NCBI GenBank assembly: GCA_018667335.1
Contig: JABIVD010000023.1
Span: 1-54,088 of the forward strand
Source of the DNA: Rhodospirillaceae bacterium
GTDB taxonomy: Bacteria; Pseudomonadota; Alphaproteobacteria; UBA6615
Direction: 5' to 3'
DNA: 54,088 nucleotides
The notes under the pieces were generated by a model. That model ran no database searches, was not told where the DNA came from, and worked only from the letters and a program-made list of their open reading frames with translations. Each line of letters starts with the position of its first letter. Position 1 is the first letter of the stretch. A program made the translations under genes and the position numbers. Below, one piece after another: positions 18,205-24,854 of the stretch.

Positions 18205-20619
18205 TCAGTAAATACCGCGTCGCGGACCACCTGTATTGGCGCCGCGCCCCAGATCCTCGCCAACGATCGAGCCAAACTCGAGCGGTGCGGTGCCTGGCTT
18301 AAACGCCTCGAGAATGGTTGCCCGCTCACCAGGCAATGCCACCAACCCGGTCTCCGGGTTCACGCGCACGAGTCGAATATCAGGCGGCACGCGGAACGGA
18401 ATGACGGGCTTGCCGTCGAGCGCGTGCGCCATGAAGTCCTTGAAGATCGGCGCGGGCACCGAGGAGCCGGTCTCGCGCCGCCCCAGCGTGCGCGGCGTAT
18501 CGAAACCAACGAAGACACCGACCGCGAGATCGGGCGCGAAGCCGATAAACCACGTATCGAGCGAATCATTCGTCGTTCCGGTCTTCCCGGCAAGCGGCAA
18601 CTTCAACTGGCCAATTCGCCTTCCCGTCCCGCGATCCACGACGCCCTTCAGCATCGACACCATCTGATACGCCGTGCCGGGCTGGATCAATCGCTCGCGC
18701 GGATCCGGCAGTTTCGGCGGCGGCTGGTCGGCCCAGGCCCCGACGCGGCACGTCTCGCAAGGTCGCTCATCATGGCGGAACGTCGTCATACCGTGTCGGT
18801 CCTGAATTCGGTCGATCAGGGTCGGTGTGATCTGCTTGCCGCCATTGACGACCGTCGCGTAAGCCGCGACCAGGCGCATCAGCGTCGTCTCGCCCGCCCC
18901 GATCGACATGGCGAGCTGGCGCGGCAAATGATCCACAACTTTCAGCCGCTCCGCATAGGTCGCCACCTGTTCCATGCCGACCGTCTGCGCCAGTCGCACG
19001 GTCATCAGATTGCGTGACTTCTCGATCCCGAGGCGCATCGGGCTCGGCCCGTAAAACTTGTTCGAGTAGTTGGCGGGCTTCCACTTACCTTGTCCGGCGC
19101 CCTGATCGATCACGAAGGGCGCATCGAGTATCCGGGTCGAGGGCGTGAACCCATTGTCCAGCGCGGCCAAATAGACGATCGGCTTGAACGCCGAGCCCGG
19201 CTGGCGCCACGCCTGGGTCGCGCGGTTGAACTCGCTGGCTCGAAAATCGAGGCCACCCGTCATCGCAAGGATACGGCCGGTATGGGGGTCCAGTGCCACG
19301 ACTGCACCATTGATTTCGGGGATCTGCTCCAGGCGGAACGTTCCTTCGGGATATGGCTTGGCCTCGGAATCTTCTGTCACCGCCGACACCAGGACCACAT
19401 CACCGGGCGCGAGCACCTGATCGACCGACTTAACGGATGGACCGCGTTTCTGCCCCGGCTTCCACGCGCGTGCCCAGCGCAGCTCCGTAAGCGGTACAGC
19501 CCCCATCGTCCCGTCGATAAACCCAATGGACGCGGCGTCCGCCTCCACGTTCACCACGGCTGCGAGTTGCCATTCGCCCGAACCTGCCGGATGCTTGATC
19601 TCCGGCAGCGCGGCCTGCCATGCGGCGGGGTCTTTTATGCGAGACACCGGGCCGCGCCAGCCATGCCGGCGATCATAGGCAACCAGCCCGTCGCGCAACG
19701 ATTGCTGGGCGATGCGCTGCAATCTCGGATCCAGCGTCGTGCGCACCGAGAGCCCGCCTTCATACAGCGCGCCGTCTCCGAACCGGTCCACCAACTCGCG
19801 GCGCACTTCCTCGGCAAAATACGGCGCCTCGACGAAGTCAGCCTCATCCTTGCGGACGACATTGATCGGGCGTTGGCGAAGTTCGTCCGCCTCCGACGGC
19901 GAGATAGCGCCATCCTCCGCCATGCGGCCAAGGACATAGTTACGCCGCGCGACCGCCGCCGCGTTTTTGCGCAGCGGGTTGTAGTTGTTTGGCGCCTTCG
20001 GCAACGCCGCCAGGAATGCCGCCTCGTCCACCGTCAGTTGGTCGAGGGGTTTTCCGAAATAATTCAATGCCGCCGACGCCACCCCGTAGGCCCCGAACCC
20101 GAGATAGATTTCATTCAAATAGAGCTCGAGAATCTCGTCCTTCGAAAACGCACGCTCCATTCGAAATGACAGGATCGCTTCCCGGACCTTGCGATCAAGA
20201 GAGACTTCCTTGGTCAGCAGGAAATTCTGCGCCACCTGCTGAGTGATCGTGGACGCCCCTTCGGGCCGCCGGCCGGAGCCCAGATTGCGGACGTTCGACA
20301 CCACGGCGCGCATCACGCCCGTCACATCAACGCCAGGGTGCTTGTAAAAATTCTTGTCTTCCGCCGACAGGAACGCCTCTTTGACCAAATTCGGCATGGT
20401 CGAGACCGGAACGAAAATGCGGCGCTGAACCGCATACTCGGCCAACAGACTGCCGTCGCCGGCATGCACCCGCGTGGTGACCGGTGGCTGGTAGTCGGCC
20501 AATTGGCTGTAGTCCGGAAGGTCCCGACCGAACTCCCAGAACACCCACAGCACGCCGCCCACCACGACCAGTGCACCGACGAGAGCCAGTCCCGCGAGAT
20601 ATCCAAACCAACGAAGCAT
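18205..20619 (-). CDS. mrcA: Penicillin-binding protein 1A (class A, bifunctional)
   Basis: Polymerises and cross-links peptidoglycan on the periplasmic face of the inner membrane. The 804-aa protein has one N-terminal transmembrane helix (about 5-28). The GT51 glycosyltransferase domain has [13 protein letters not shown] (catalytic Glu87) and [12 protein letters not shown]. An OB-like insert lies around 320-430. The transpeptidase domain has SAFK (Ser476, Lys479), SRN (535-537) and KTGTT (679-683). A Cys pair, CETC at 621-624, is also present in many alphaproteobacterial PBP1A proteins. It lies between amiC and prfB on the same strand, a conserved order. All catalytic motifs are intact. Confidence 0.97.
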
Positions 20620-20720
20620 TCAGCGTTCCAAGTTTATTCGCGCGCGAGCATAGACGAGCACGCGCACGGGATAAGCATCAAAATGTGGGGTGATTGTGGC
20701 GGCGCCGGGTTGCGGATTCG

Positions 20721-21956
20721 CTAAAGCGCCGCGCTGCGGGTTGTCTCGAAGTAAATTTCGATGGCCTCGACGATGGTGGCTGACAACTTGTTGCGGTGTG
20801 CAGAAGACAGCAGCAGCCTTTCCTCGCGGGGGTTTGAGATATATCCCAGCTCAACCAGGACCGACGGTATGTCCGGCGCCTTGAGCACGGCGAAGCCCGC
20901 CGAGCGCCAGGGACGCGTCAGAAGCGCAGCGTCCGGCTTTACGGCACCGACCAGGATGTCGCGCGCGAACTTGACCGACAATTCGTTGGTTTTGGCCTGC
21001 GCGAAATCGATCAGAATATTCTGGACGTCGTTGCTGTAGCCACCCAGATCGACCCCGCCAATGACGTCTGACTTGTTTTCATGTGCCGCCAGTGCAGCCG
21101 CTTCCTTGTCCGATGCCCGGCTGGACAGCGTGTAGACGGACAGGCCGCGGGTCGACCGCTTCGGGTGGGTATTCACATGGAGCGACAGGAACAGGTCGGC
21201 ACCCTTGGTTCGCGCCAGGAGAACCCGCTCACGCAACGGCAGGAAAATGTCGCGGTCCCGCGTCAGGGCAACGTCGAATTTCCCGGACTCCCGCAGTCGC
21301 TGGGCGATGGACCGTGCATAGTCGAGGACGACCTTCTTCTCATAGACTCCCGATACACCAATTGCGCCGGGATCGACGCCACCATGGCCGGCGTCGATCA
21401 CCACCATGGGACGAACATTGGGCGTTGAGGGCGCTGGCACCGGCGCCGCCGCCACGGGATTCGGGTTTGTGCTGGCGCTCGGGCGCATGGAGGCGATGAA
21501 GTCCGCCCGGGTGGTCGGCTCGATATCGAGCACCAAACGCCAGGGTTTGCCGCCGTCCGGGCGAAGCATAAATTGTTTTGTGACCTTCGAAGGAGATGCA
21601 AGATCCAAGACGAAGCGACTTGTTCCCGGTCGGAATAGGCCATACCGGAGTTTGGAGATTAATCCTGCGCCATCTCCAATCCGTTCCTCGGGCAAATCGA
21701 AATCCACCTCGGGAAGATCAATAACCACACGGAACGGATCGGGAAGGCCGAATACACGCGGTTCCACGCGATCATTCAGTTCAACCACGAAGCGCGTCGA
21801 GCCGGCATGAACGCCGATCCGGATGTCTTGAACCTTCAAATCCTGCGCGCCCGCCATGTTCGGCGCACCAATCATCACAAGCGCGGCAGCCAGGACACCC
21901 AAGAGGAGCCGGCCACGCCGTGCAGAACTCAATAAGCGTTTCAGAATCAATGACAT
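20721..21956 (-). CDS. amiC: N-acetylmuramoyl-L-alanine amidase with AMIN domain (AmiC-like)
   Basis: Cleaves the stem peptide from MurNAc during cell separation. Starting from ATG 21956 the protein has 411 aa; the 7-residue longer version would use GTG 21977. There is a signal peptide (RRGRLLLGVLAAALVMIGAPNMAGA), an AMIN domain (about 40-145), a Pro/Ala/Asn linker (about 160-182), and an Amidase_3 domain. Zinc ligands are His191 (DAGHGG), Glu206 (YEKKV) and His260 (SLHVNTH), with the catalytic Glu369 (VELGYISNPRE). AMIN domains usually target the enzyme to peptidoglycan or the septum. Divergent from rne; the mrcA start is 101 bp after the stop. Confidence 0.95.
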   Translation of the reverse strand: MSLILKRLLSSARRGRLLLGVLAAALVMIGAPNMAGAQDLKVQDIRIGVHAGSTRFVVELNDRVEPRVFGLPDPFRVVIDLPEVDFDLPEERIGDGAGLISKLRYGLFRPGTSRFVLDLASPSKVTKQFMLRPDGGKPWRLVLDIEPTTRADFIASMRPSASTNPNPVAAAPVPAPSTPNVRPMVVIDAGHGGVDPGAIGVSGVYEKKVVLDYARSIAQRLRESGKFDVALTRDRDIFLPLRERVLLARTKGADLFLSLHVNTHPKRSTRGLSVYTLSSRASDKEAAALAAHENKSDVIGGVDLGGYSNDVQNILIDFAQAKTNELSVKFARDILVGAVKPDAALLTRPWRSAGFAVLKAPDIPSVLVELGYISNPREERLLLSSAHRNKLSATIVEAIEIYFETTRSAAL

Positions 21957-22029
21957 CGCCGACAGGTATATCGCCACTCACGAATGCGCCGCAACACACA
22001 AGCGCGACACTTGTCGACAATCAAATGCA

Positions 22030-22058
22030 TTGTGGATCAGACTCGCGGGCGCTATTGT
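22030..22058 (+). promoter_or_regulatory. Candidate rne promoter
   Basis: TTGTGG (22030-22035), a 17-bp spacer and TATTGT (22053-22058) form a modest sigma-70-like match. It would give a leader of about 300 nt before the rne ATG. The match is weak (3/6 and 4/6), so this is only a candidate. Confidence 0.3.
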
Positions 22059-22280
22059 GAGTGTGCGGACACCCGCAATTCAAATGACGCGCGCTGCGTT
22101 TCACGGTCTGGGTGTGGGCAAGCGAGCCAATCTATCGCCCTAGCGCCCGCGCAGACCAGACAAAGTGCGCATCAGAGTTGCGGTTTTGTGCAACTTCGAG
22201 GCCACCGTACGGCAATCGCCGGGCGGGCTTTCGGATCAAAACCTACCGTCCTGGTGCGAATTCGCCCGTTCGACGGCTCA

Positions 22281-22362
22281 GGTTCCGAGGCAGGCCTCTG
22301 AAAATGTGGAACCCCTCTCGCTTTTGTCCGCAAAGCGCTGAGTTCAGGCTTCCACAGGGACA
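22281..22362 (+). promoter_or_regulatory. Structured 5' leader of rne with two exclusive hairpins
   Basis: Helix A pairs GGTTCCGAGG (22281-22290) with CCTC (22295-22298) and GGAACC (22308-22313). Helix B pairs TGTGGAA (22305-22311) with TTCCACA (22350-22356) and encloses an inner stem CGCTTT/AAAGCG (22319-22324/22332-22337) plus CTC/GAG (22315-22317/22340-22342). Bases 22308-22311 are used by both helices, so they exclude each other. The inner loop TGTCC (22325-22329) is complementary to GGACA (22358-22362), which overlaps the AGGGA ribosome binding site, so a pseudoknot masking the site is possible. Pairings were read by eye; no energies were computed. Confidence 0.55.
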
Positions 22363-22367
22363 TAGCC

Positions 22368-24854
22368 ATGCCAAAGCGCATGTTGATCGACGCGACCCAT
22401 CCAGAAGAAACCCGGGTCGTCGTCGCAGACGGTAACGAACTCCTCGAATACGATTACGAGACCTCTACCAAACGCCAGATCAAGAGCAACATCTATCTGG
22501 CCAAGGTGACCCGCGTTGAGCCTTCGCTCCAGGCGGCCTTCGTCGATTTCGGGGGTGATCGCCACGGGTTTCTCGCGTTCAACGAAATTCACCCCGACTA
22601 CTACCGCATCCCGATCGAGGATCGCGAAAAGCTATTGGCTGAATCCGACGCCGAAAGCGAAGAAGAAGAAAGCGCCGAGAATGGCGAGGCCGAGGGTGAA
22701 TCCGTTGAAGTCCTCGGCGATTCCCATGACGAAGACATCCAGGAACTGAGCGACGCCCATCGGCGACGCCTGCGCAAACTGACCCGCAGCTACAAGATCC
22801 AGGAAGTCATCAAGCGCCGCCAGATTCTGCTGGTGCAGGTGGTCAAGGAAGAGCGCGGCAACAAGGGTGCCGCACTCACGACCTACCTGTCCCTGCCGGG
22901 GCGCTATTGTGTGTTGATGCCGAACACCGCACGCGGCGGCGGCATCAGCCGAAAGGTCACGGACGCCAAGGCGCGCAAGTCGATGAAGGCGATCCTGTCC
23001 GATCTTGAGGTCCCCGAAGGCATGGCGGTGATCATGCGCACCGCCGGCGTGGCGCGCACCAAGGCAGAGATCAAACGTGACTATGAGTATTTGCGGCGTC
23101 TCTGGGACGATATTCGCGAACTCACGCTCGATTCGACCGCCCCGGCGCTGATCTATGAAGAAGGCGACGTGATCAAACGCGCGCTGCGCGACTTGTATGA
23201 TCGCGACATCGATGAGGTCCTGGTCGAGGGCGACGAAGCCTACAAGGCCGCCAAGGCGCTGATGCGAACGATGATTCCGTCACACGCCAAACGGGTTCAA
23301 AAATACGAAGACACCGAGATACCGCTTCTGAGCCGCTACCAGATCGACCAGCAGCTCGACGCAATTCACGAGCCGATCGTTCAACTCAAATCCGGCGGCT
23401 ACATCGTCATCAACCCCACCGAAGCACTTGTGGCGATTGACGTGAACTCCGGGCGCTCGACGCGCGAACGCAACGTTGAGCAAACAGCCTACCGCACCAA
23501 CCTTGAGGCCGCTGACGAAGTTGCCCGCCAGCTCAGGCTGCGCGACCTTGCCGGCCTCATCGTGATCGACTTCATCGATATGGACGTGTCGCGCAACAAT
23601 CATGCCGTCGAACGGCGCATGAAGGATGCCATGAAATCGGACCGGGCGCGGATCCAGATCGGCCGGATTTCAGCATTCGGGCTCCTCGAATTGTCGCGCC
23701 AGCGGCTGCGTCCGAGCCTGCTCGAGGCGCACGCTCAGATGTGCCCCGTGTGCAATGGTTCAGGCTTCATGCGGTCGACGGAATCGATCAGCATGTCGAT
23801 CCTGCGTGAGCTTGAGGAAGAAGGCGGGCGCAAGCGCGCCAAAGAGGTGACGGTCAAGACCCAGACCGATATCGCGCTCTACCTTCTCAACCAGAAGCGC
23901 ACCTCGCTCCAGGACCTGGAGGAACGCTACGGGTTCCGCGTGCTGGTCATGGCCGACAGTGCCCTCGCCGCGACCGAGTATGAGATCACCCATATTCGTC
24001 ATGACGGCGTCGAAGGCGTCTCCTCCAAAGACGAAACCGTACGTGAAGAGAATGCGCCCAAGCGCCGCCGCAGCCGCGGCCGACGCCGCGGCTCCGAAGA
24101 CGCGGACAACAGCGAAGACGAAGAGAAAACCGAGGGCGACGAGAAGACTGCGGATTCGAGCGCCGAAGAGCGTGAGCAGTCCGACGATGAGGACGACGAG
24201 GGTCGCAAGCGAAACGGGCGACGACGCGGCCGACGCGGTGGCCGACGCCGGCGCAAGGCGGATTCGGACGGCGAGACCGAACAGGAAACAACGACAGACG
24301 CAGAGGAATCATCAGATTCCGACAGCGAGGCCGGGACAAACGAAGAGCAAACTGACGAAGACGGCGAAGATTCAACACGCCGTCGTCGCCGTCGCCCGCG
24401 GCGCCGCGGTCGGCGCGGCAGAGGCGCTTCGGAAGAGGCATCAACGGACGAAAATGCTACGGACGACGATGCAGTTGCAACCGATGACGACGCGGACGCC
24501 GCGCCGGCAACAGATGCAGAGTCAGGGGATGCAGACGCCGACACTGACGATGCCGCGCTTGATACAGAGATCGATATCCCTGAGCCGTCTTCCGACAATG
24601 ACGCCGCGAGCGAAGAAGACGAACCGGCCACATCGTCCGACAGCTCCGATGGTTCCGACGACGGCCCCGACGAAGAGCCCGAGGCGGTGACAGTCAGTTC
24701 CGAGGATAGCGGCGACGATGCGGATGAGGCCGAAGCCGAGACTGCAGAGGCCCCCGCCGAGGAACCGGCCGAGGAACCCGAAGAAGCTCCTGAGCCCCCG
24801 GTCGAAGACAACCGGCCTCGGCGTTCGGGATGGTGGAGTCGGGGAACATCCTGA
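22368..24854 (+). CDS. rne: Ribonuclease E
   Basis: Main endonuclease of mRNA decay and rRNA/tRNA processing, and scaffold of the degradosome. The catalytic half has the S1 domain (about 36-180) interrupted by a highly acidic insertion (about 92-127) seen in alphaproteobacterial enzymes. It also has the metal-binding aspartates Asp358 (VAIDVNSGRST) and Asp401 (VIDFIDMD), and the zinc-link CPVCNGSG (Cys459, Cys462). From about 565 the tail is disordered, with three Arg-rich blocks (KRRRSRGRRRG, RKRNGRRRGRRGGRRRRK and a third near 690) separated by Asp/Glu/Ser-rich stretches. The end PRRSGWWSRG contains the GWW motif (821-823) that in Caulobacter RNase E binds PNPase. 828 aa; AGGGA precedes the ATG. 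Confidence 0.97.
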   Translation: MPKRMLIDATHPEETRVVVADGNELLEYDYETSTKRQIKSNIYLAKVTRVEPSLQAAFVDFGGDRHGFLAFNEIHPDYYRIPIEDREKLLAESDAESEEEESAENGEAEGESVEVLGDSHDEDIQELSDAHRRRLRKLTRSYKIQEVIKRRQILLVQVVKEERGNKGAALTTYLSLPGRYCVLMPNTARGGGISRKVTDAKARKSMKAILSDLEVPEGMAVIMRTAGVARTKAEIKRDYEYLRRLWDDIRELTLDSTAPALIYEEGDVIKRALRDLYDRDIDEVLVEGDEAYKAAKALMRTMIPSHAKRVQKYEDTEIPLLSRYQIDQQLDAIHEPIVQLKSGGYIVINPTEALVAIDVNSGRSTRERNVEQTAYRTNLEAADEVARQLRLRDLAGLIVIDFIDMDVSRNNHAVERRMKDAMKSDRARIQIGRISAFGLLELSRQRLRPSLLEAHAQMCPVCNGSGFMRSTESISMSILRELEEEGGRKRAKEVTVKTQTDIALYLLNQKRTSLQDLEERYGFRVLVMADSALAATEYEITHIRHDGVEGVSSKDETVREENAPKRRRSRGRRRGSEDADNSEDEEKTEGDEKTADSSAEEREQSDDEDDEGRKRNGRRRGRRGGRRRRKADSDGETEQETTTDAEESSDSDSEAGTNEEQTDEDGEDSTRRRRRRPRRRGRRGRGASEEASTDENATDDDAVATDDDADAAPATDAESGDADADTDDAALDTEIDIPEPSSDNDAASEEDEPATSSDSSDGSDDGPDEEPEAVTVSSEDSGDDADEAEAETAEAPAEEPAEEPEEAPEPPVEDNRPRRSGWWSRGTS

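Follow-up and report, generated by a model that had tools for sequence, protein, structure and literature searches.

A conserved structured RNA lies directly before rne in several families of Alphaproteobacteria and is a candidate RNase E sensor

We analyzed a window of 54,088 nt from contig JABIVD010000023.1 (assembly GCA_018667335.1) of a Rhodospirillaceae bacterium (Alphaproteobacteria; UBA6615), and all coordinates below refer to this window. The open reading frame that the initial annotation called rne is indeed an RNase E gene: it matches the TIGR00757 (RNaseEG) model at 515.7 bits, against a cut-off of 325.95. Upstream of it, and divergent from it, lie two minus-strand genes (18205-21977), one amidase-like and one of the PBP1A family. 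In the two nearest genera the divergent amidase is retained in all 12 leaders and starts about 400 nt from rne; it is present at 17 of the 24 loci that we examined in the bacterial family as a whole. A scan for promoters and terminators between 21900 and 22500 reported 0 of each. The two genes that flank the region are:

22368..24854, + strand: rne, encoding RNase E (828 aa), identified by TIGR00757 RNaseEG
20721..21977, - strand: divergent N-acetylmuramoyl-L-alanine amidase-like gene, with a likely start near 21957, identified by NCBIfam matches below their curated cut-offs

Across the family, 23 of 24 genomes supplied 24 rne leader loci (L022-L045), which we reoriented and aligned. Sequence conservation sets in about 175 nt 5' of the start codon, which is beyond the interval considered in the initial annotation. 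From these comparisons, the start of the rne mRNA is predicted to fold into a large, conserved RNA structure that is common to several alphaproteobacterial families. Its predicted form is a three-way junction–helix P1 closes it, and hairpins P2 and P3 branch from it–followed by a further hairpin, P4, that adjoins the Shine-Dalgarno sequence. All of its parts are on the plus strand:

22192..22362, + strand: the complete conserved leader RNA of rne (~170 nt; 171 positions in the model); covariance model R1 (see below) matches it at 196.8 bits, as one of its training sequences
22195..22203, + strand: P1, 5' strand, closing the three-way junction (minimum free energy [MFE] pairs; changes on both sides)
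22293..22302, + strand: P1, 3' strand (MFE pairs; changes on both sides)
22205..22226, + strand: P2 hairpin (MFE fold and alignment pair counts)
22227..22291, + strand: P3, a long stem-loop that includes GGUUCC (RNAalifold on the sequence-only alignment; helices 3-8 of alignment A6; MFE fold)
22246..22276, + strand: P3 core, CCGUCCUGG...CCGUUCGACGG, strongly conserved; its internal loop is asymmetric
22305..22356, + strand: P4 hairpin, whose outer part is helix B of the initial annotation (alignment pair counts; helices 9-11 of A6)
22325..22331, + strand: P4 terminal loop, UGUCCGC
22356..22360, + strand: AGGGA, Shine-Dalgarno-like, directly 3' of P4 (sequence, and position relative to the ATG)

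The element ends 5 nt upstream of the rne start codon, and P4 abuts the Shine-Dalgarno sequence both in the window and in the aligned leaders of the family. Compensatory changes were assessed in two main alignments. A2 is a purely sequence-based alignment of 12 leaders, those from the two nearest genera. On it RNAalifold predicted P1, the outer part of P2, the long P3 stem and P4; 91.4% of cells are paired, and 16 of the 48 pairs show changes on both sides. Neither value was reached in any of 500 shuffles, although the count of further pair types was reached in 28 of the 500. In A6 (36 sequences), changes on both sides affect 41 of the 45 pairs, and paired cells make up 92.5%, compared with 66.5% after shuffling, but A6, like A4, was fitted to the structure and its pair counts lean towards that structure. 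Helix P1 has pairs changed on both sides at 5 of 7 positions in the sequence-only alignment and at 6 of 6 in the structure-fitted A6. The leader thus has a conserved secondary structure with compensatory changes, as expected of a cis-regulatory RNA, and the excess of G-U over A-C cells (95 vs 24) is a strand signal that fits the rne strand. Letters in the loops and in the internal loop are also conserved in sequence across families. For example, the P4 loop in the 36 leaders reads GUUCGC in 18, GUCCGC in six and another YCGC sequence in eight (among them G013, in which the P4 region is altered), leaving four with none of these.

Energy calculations on the window sequence gave the same structure as the comparative alignment. 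Positions 22192-22367 have a minimum free energy of -71.0 kcal/mol (z = -2.55), and only 1 of 200 shuffles was as good. A fairly good fold was likewise obtained for the complementary strand (-70.1 kcal/mol, z = -1.86; 6 of 200 shuffles). By comparison, the 90-nt interval of the initial annotation, which splits both P3 and P1, folds no better than its shuffles when taken alone (z = -0.66; 45 of 200 as good). P4 was predicted with a probability of at least 0.67 in 21 of the 22 family leaders when each was folded by itself; its probability fell below 0.5 in 5, 3 and 6 of the 22 when 30, 60 and 100 nt of coding sequence were included, and the window's own leader is one of the five at 30 nt. At that length (22305-22395) the P4 region prefers to pair with the first rne codons and so hides the Shine-Dalgarno sequence, whereas with 60 nt of coding sequence P4 dominates again in the window, and relatives vary. 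We did not retain this competing fold because it is inconsistent across sequences and lengths. RNAalifold also paired three Shine-Dalgarno letters with the rne AUG and second codon (A2 columns 176-191, corresponding to the region 22357-22372), and these pairs have no change on both sides.

To find the element elsewhere we used a series of covariance models. The first, R1, was built from only 12 sequences of two genera. Among the 24 family genomes, 12 of which supplied its training sequences, its best genome-wide match was at the rne leader in 20, and in 8 of the 12 untrained genomes the best match in the whole genome was directly before rne. The four misses were G017, which has no rne match; G008 and G015, whose leaders were found in a local search; and G010, which gave only an unrelated weak match. 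With 117 candidates scored, R1 produced six weak matches elsewhere in family genomes (E = 0.17-0.77), including the one in G010. The local search with R1 matched 22 of the 24 leaders, and the two that it missed, L044 and L045, both belong to G010.

A second model, R2, was made from these family leaders only (22 sequences). In 289 genomes of the class it gave seven matches at E ≤ 0.1, all seven directly before rne; three are training genomes of the family, and four are untrained genomes from other families (G074, G083, G089 and G208), for three of which (G074, G089 and G208) we also read the leader sequences directly. Applied to 100 rne leaders of the class, R2 made 18 matches at E ≤ 1, every one on the rne strand, and applied to 85 loci it made four at E ≤ 1, at L052 (from the window's own genus), L063 (a Rhodospirillales MAG), L065 (an Alphaproteobacteria MAG) and L079 (a Rhodospirillaceae MAG), with none at the other 81. 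The third model, R3, was made from 36 sequences and gave 19 matches at E ≤ 0.1 in the same number of class genomes (289). They span 13 families, 15 are in training genomes and four in untrained ones, and all 19 are upstream of rne: the gap to the start codon is 4-9 nt in 17 of them and about 65 nt in the other two (G079 and G209). The association with one gene is therefore consistent (7/7 with R2, 19/19 with R3). Both class searches used strict filters and scored the best nine first-look candidates in each genome, so the statement that the element occurs only before rne rests on those nine candidates per genome.

An rne match was present in 268 class genomes, from which we took 112 leaders (one of the class leaders, L196, is incomplete). 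At E ≤ 0.01 R3 recognized 24 of these, and half of the 24 were untrained. Relaxing the cut-off to E ≤ 1 raised the number to 31, of which 12 were training sequences; every one of the 31 is on the rne strand, and in L266 and L267 the match is confined to P3. The other 88 of the 112 had no R3 match at E ≤ 0.01, and a looser count of conserved letters in the same 112 leaders gave little further gain. The element is not universal in the class, and leaders that do not match either do not have it or have diverged. Two leaders below or near the threshold, L223 and L258, carry a CGAAG/CGGAG motif like that in P1 and a GUUCG-type loop, and these letters suggest that the spread of the element may be wider and more divergent than we counted. 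In the phylum sample R3 matched 3 of 299 genomes; the third match, in G636 (E = 0.09), was rejected because it is not at an rne leader and no such leader was seen there on reading. We also searched 385 class genomes with a sequence pattern for the P3 core. It matched 21 genomes, compared with 18 for the reversed control pattern, and 11 of the 21 matches are at rne by coordinates. The other 10 are apparently not at rne: nine are loci with no recognizable RNase E start, and in G245 rne sits on another contig.

At the gathering score, no Rfam 15 family matched the window or 18 related loci. Four weak matches were discarded as identities because they are to eukaryotic families and fall far below the gathering score, and at E values up to 10 the sole matches in the region 21900-22500 were to two eukaryotic families. 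Of the initial interpretation, a structured leader of rne that plausibly controls the gene is supported; this leader is conserved and matches no family in Rfam. Two rne leader families are known: rne5 (RF00040), in the rne 5' UTR of E. coli and other enterobacteria, and rne-II (RF01756), which lies upstream of rne. The element immediately precedes rne in the window and its relatives; it thus has the upstream setting of rne-II, and it may, like rne5, belong to the rne 5' UTR. The rne5 covariance model gave 0 matches at the gathering score in the window and 0 in the 18 related loci, and the rne-II model likewise gave none in either.

The E. coli rne 5' UTR mediates feedback by RNase E in cis, according to the accessible text of PMC10989929 and PMC3997798. 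Like the alphaproteobacterial leader it is a structured RNA before rne, but the UTR length given in that text is 361 nt (PMC10989929), whereas our element has about 170 nt, a three-way junction closed by P1 and no Rfam match. The rne-II family was found by comparative genomics, as our element was, and is likewise named for rne; a table in PMC2864571 lists it for Pseudomonadales, whereas the alphaproteobacterial leader has no match in Rfam. In Synechocystis, the accessible text of PMC10989929 describes a U-rich element in the rne 5' UTR that takes part in RNase E feedback, with U-rich cleavage and early termination as the proposed route. The likeness to that system would be RNase E feedback through the rne leader; the difference, on that description, is that the alphaproteobacterial leader has a multibranched fold and no long U-rich run. 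By analogy, our leader probably works like rne5 and rne-II, although it matches neither. Among the matches listed in our searches of open-access titles and abstracts, we found no report of an rne leader RNA in Alphaproteobacteria, and the accessible parts of papers on Rhodobacter sphaeroides RNases describe no such element. The control of RNase E outside a few model bacteria is said in the abstract of PMC10989929 to be largely unknown.

Because conserved unpaired letters sit on covarying stems and the whole is attached to rne, the leader looks like a recognition site, and because P4 adjoins the Shine-Dalgarno sequence, the arrangement suggests an output at translation or at decay near the start. 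By analogy with E. coli, as described in PMC10989929 and PMC3997798, the most economical interpretation would have RNase E recognizing the leader of its own mRNA. The fold and its association with rne come from comparison, and the feedback would follow by analogy; taking these together, we see about an even chance that this is a cis-acting leader RNA of rne that serves as a sensor for RNase E feedback. RNase E, or its degradosome, would recognize conserved unpaired letters on the covarying stems, the candidates being the internal loop of P3 and the GUUCGC-like loop of P4, and would cut nearby single-stranded RNA, either in the short A-rich linker between P1 and P4 or in the Shine-Dalgarno region. 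High RNase E would then lower both the amount of rne mRNA and its translation, and low RNase E would spare it; no alternative helix would be required. The fuller proposal is one that we hold tentatively, at a little under even: that the element is an undescribed alphaproteobacterial RNA family, present in at least a dozen families of bacteria, that arose as an autoregulatory sensor of RNase E, independently of the sensors in enterobacteria and pseudomonads, with the core of P3 and the GUUCGC-like loop as the sites of recognition. If so, it would give the Alphaproteobacteria a candidate RNase E sensor with a precise fold, for which loop and stem mutants are obvious, and a further case for asking if feedback elements of RNase E evolved more than once. 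The covariance model could be offered to Rfam.

The same leader could instead act in cis through P4, beside the Shine-Dalgarno sequence, while sensing something else–another RNA-binding protein, a ribosomal protein, a small RNA or a small ligand. The adjacency of P4 and the Shine-Dalgarno sequence in the window and the aligned family leaders suits this explanation, and three-way junctions with conserved loop letters are also typical of riboswitches and of protein-binding leaders. It is set back by the finding that every class match at E ≤ 0.1, in both searches and among nine candidates per genome, lies before rne, which indirectly favors a sensor tied to RNase E itself, and we regard a different sensed molecule as possible but unlikely. 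We think it rather improbable that the structure senses nothing and is a passive stabilizer, shielding the rne mRNA from decay or keeping the ribosome site clear. Structure by itself would suffice for such a role, and the Shine-Dalgarno sequence is unpaired when the leader is in its P4-folded form, so P4 alone does not hide the start; yet the loop and internal-loop letters that are conserved across families are not required for stability.

The initial annotation had proposed a switch in which GGAACC (22308-22313) pairs either upstream with GGTTCC (22281-22286; helix A) or, as TGTGGAA (22305-22311), downstream with TTCCACA (22350-22356; helix B), the shared bases 22308-22311 making the two exclusive. 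In form B, TGTCC (22325-22329) of the 7-nt loop TGTCCGC (22325-22331) was to pair as a pseudoknot with GGACA (22358-22362) over the ribosome binding site. Every one of these segments is present as described, and helix B is part of the leader structure. In the 12-leader sequence-only alignment it has 96.4% of cells paired, and changes on both sides occur in 2 of 7 pairs, a number attained by 115 of 500 shuffles. In the 36 model-aligned leaders 90.1% are paired vs 67.9% after shuffling; all seven pairs show such changes, as 12 of 500 shuffles also do, and none of the 500 reached its covariation score.

Helix A behaves differently, and a two-state switch, in which both helices should covary, is very improbable on these data. 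Helix A can form in 12/12 near leaders (100% of cells), but none of its pairs has changed on both sides. Widening the set to 22 leaders of the family gives 76.0% of cells paired vs 67.5% after shuffling (0 of 500 shuffles) and nine cells changed on both sides (reached by 2 of 500), but sliding one partner by a column does as well (77.1%); in the 36 leaders it reaches 59.4% vs 52.1% (1 of 500), with 56.9% and 57.4% for the slid controls. Since helix A is above shuffles but not clearly above slid controls, it is unsupported rather than strictly excluded. In the ensemble helix A has a pairing probability of 0.00. Imposing it raises the energy of the isolated leader by about 10 kcal/mol (-61.0 vs -71.0), and that of the leader plus the first 28 nt of rne by about 7 kcal/mol (-70.8 vs -78.2). 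GGUUCC is instead one strand of P3, with partners at 22233-22235 and 22241-22243. The pseudoknot fares no better. The window itself offers five Watson-Crick pairs between loop and Shine-Dalgarno region, but loop and ribosome-binding-site letters do not covary: 78.3% of cells are paired in the 12 leaders with no change on both sides, 67.6% in the 22 leaders vs 63.8% shuffled (1 of 500) and 65.7% when slid by one, and 60.2% in the 36 leaders vs 58.7% shuffled (87 of 500) and 67.8% when slid by one. Neither helix A nor the pseudoknot, then, has compensatory changes in the two genera that keep helix A, the outcome that the initial annotation itself had named as speaking against its proposal, and the switch was mostly a product of working from too short a piece. 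Because the loop letters are kept on a covarying P4 stem, they are probably conserved for something besides pairing with the ribosome binding site.

It is scarcely credible that the RNA fold is incidental and that the region is conserved as an operator or promoter of the divergent gene pair, or as a minus-strand leader of the amidase-like gene: the amidase does read away from rne and the minus strand does fold, but the sequence-only alignment has compensatory changes, most class matches end a short distance before the rne start codon, and the class-leader matches and the G-U excess both follow the rne strand.

Two smaller observations concern the same region. An out-of-frame ORF begins at ATG 22304 and overlaps the rne start (22304-22435); we rejected it as a conserved upstream ORF because this ATG is found in 12 of the 22 family leaders, all near ones, and none of the 10 far leaders has it at the corresponding columns. 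One family genome, G010, has two rne genes, at L044 and L045. R3 finds the leader at L045 (E = 4 x 10−9) and has no match at L044, and the pair is a natural contrast for testing the role of the leader.
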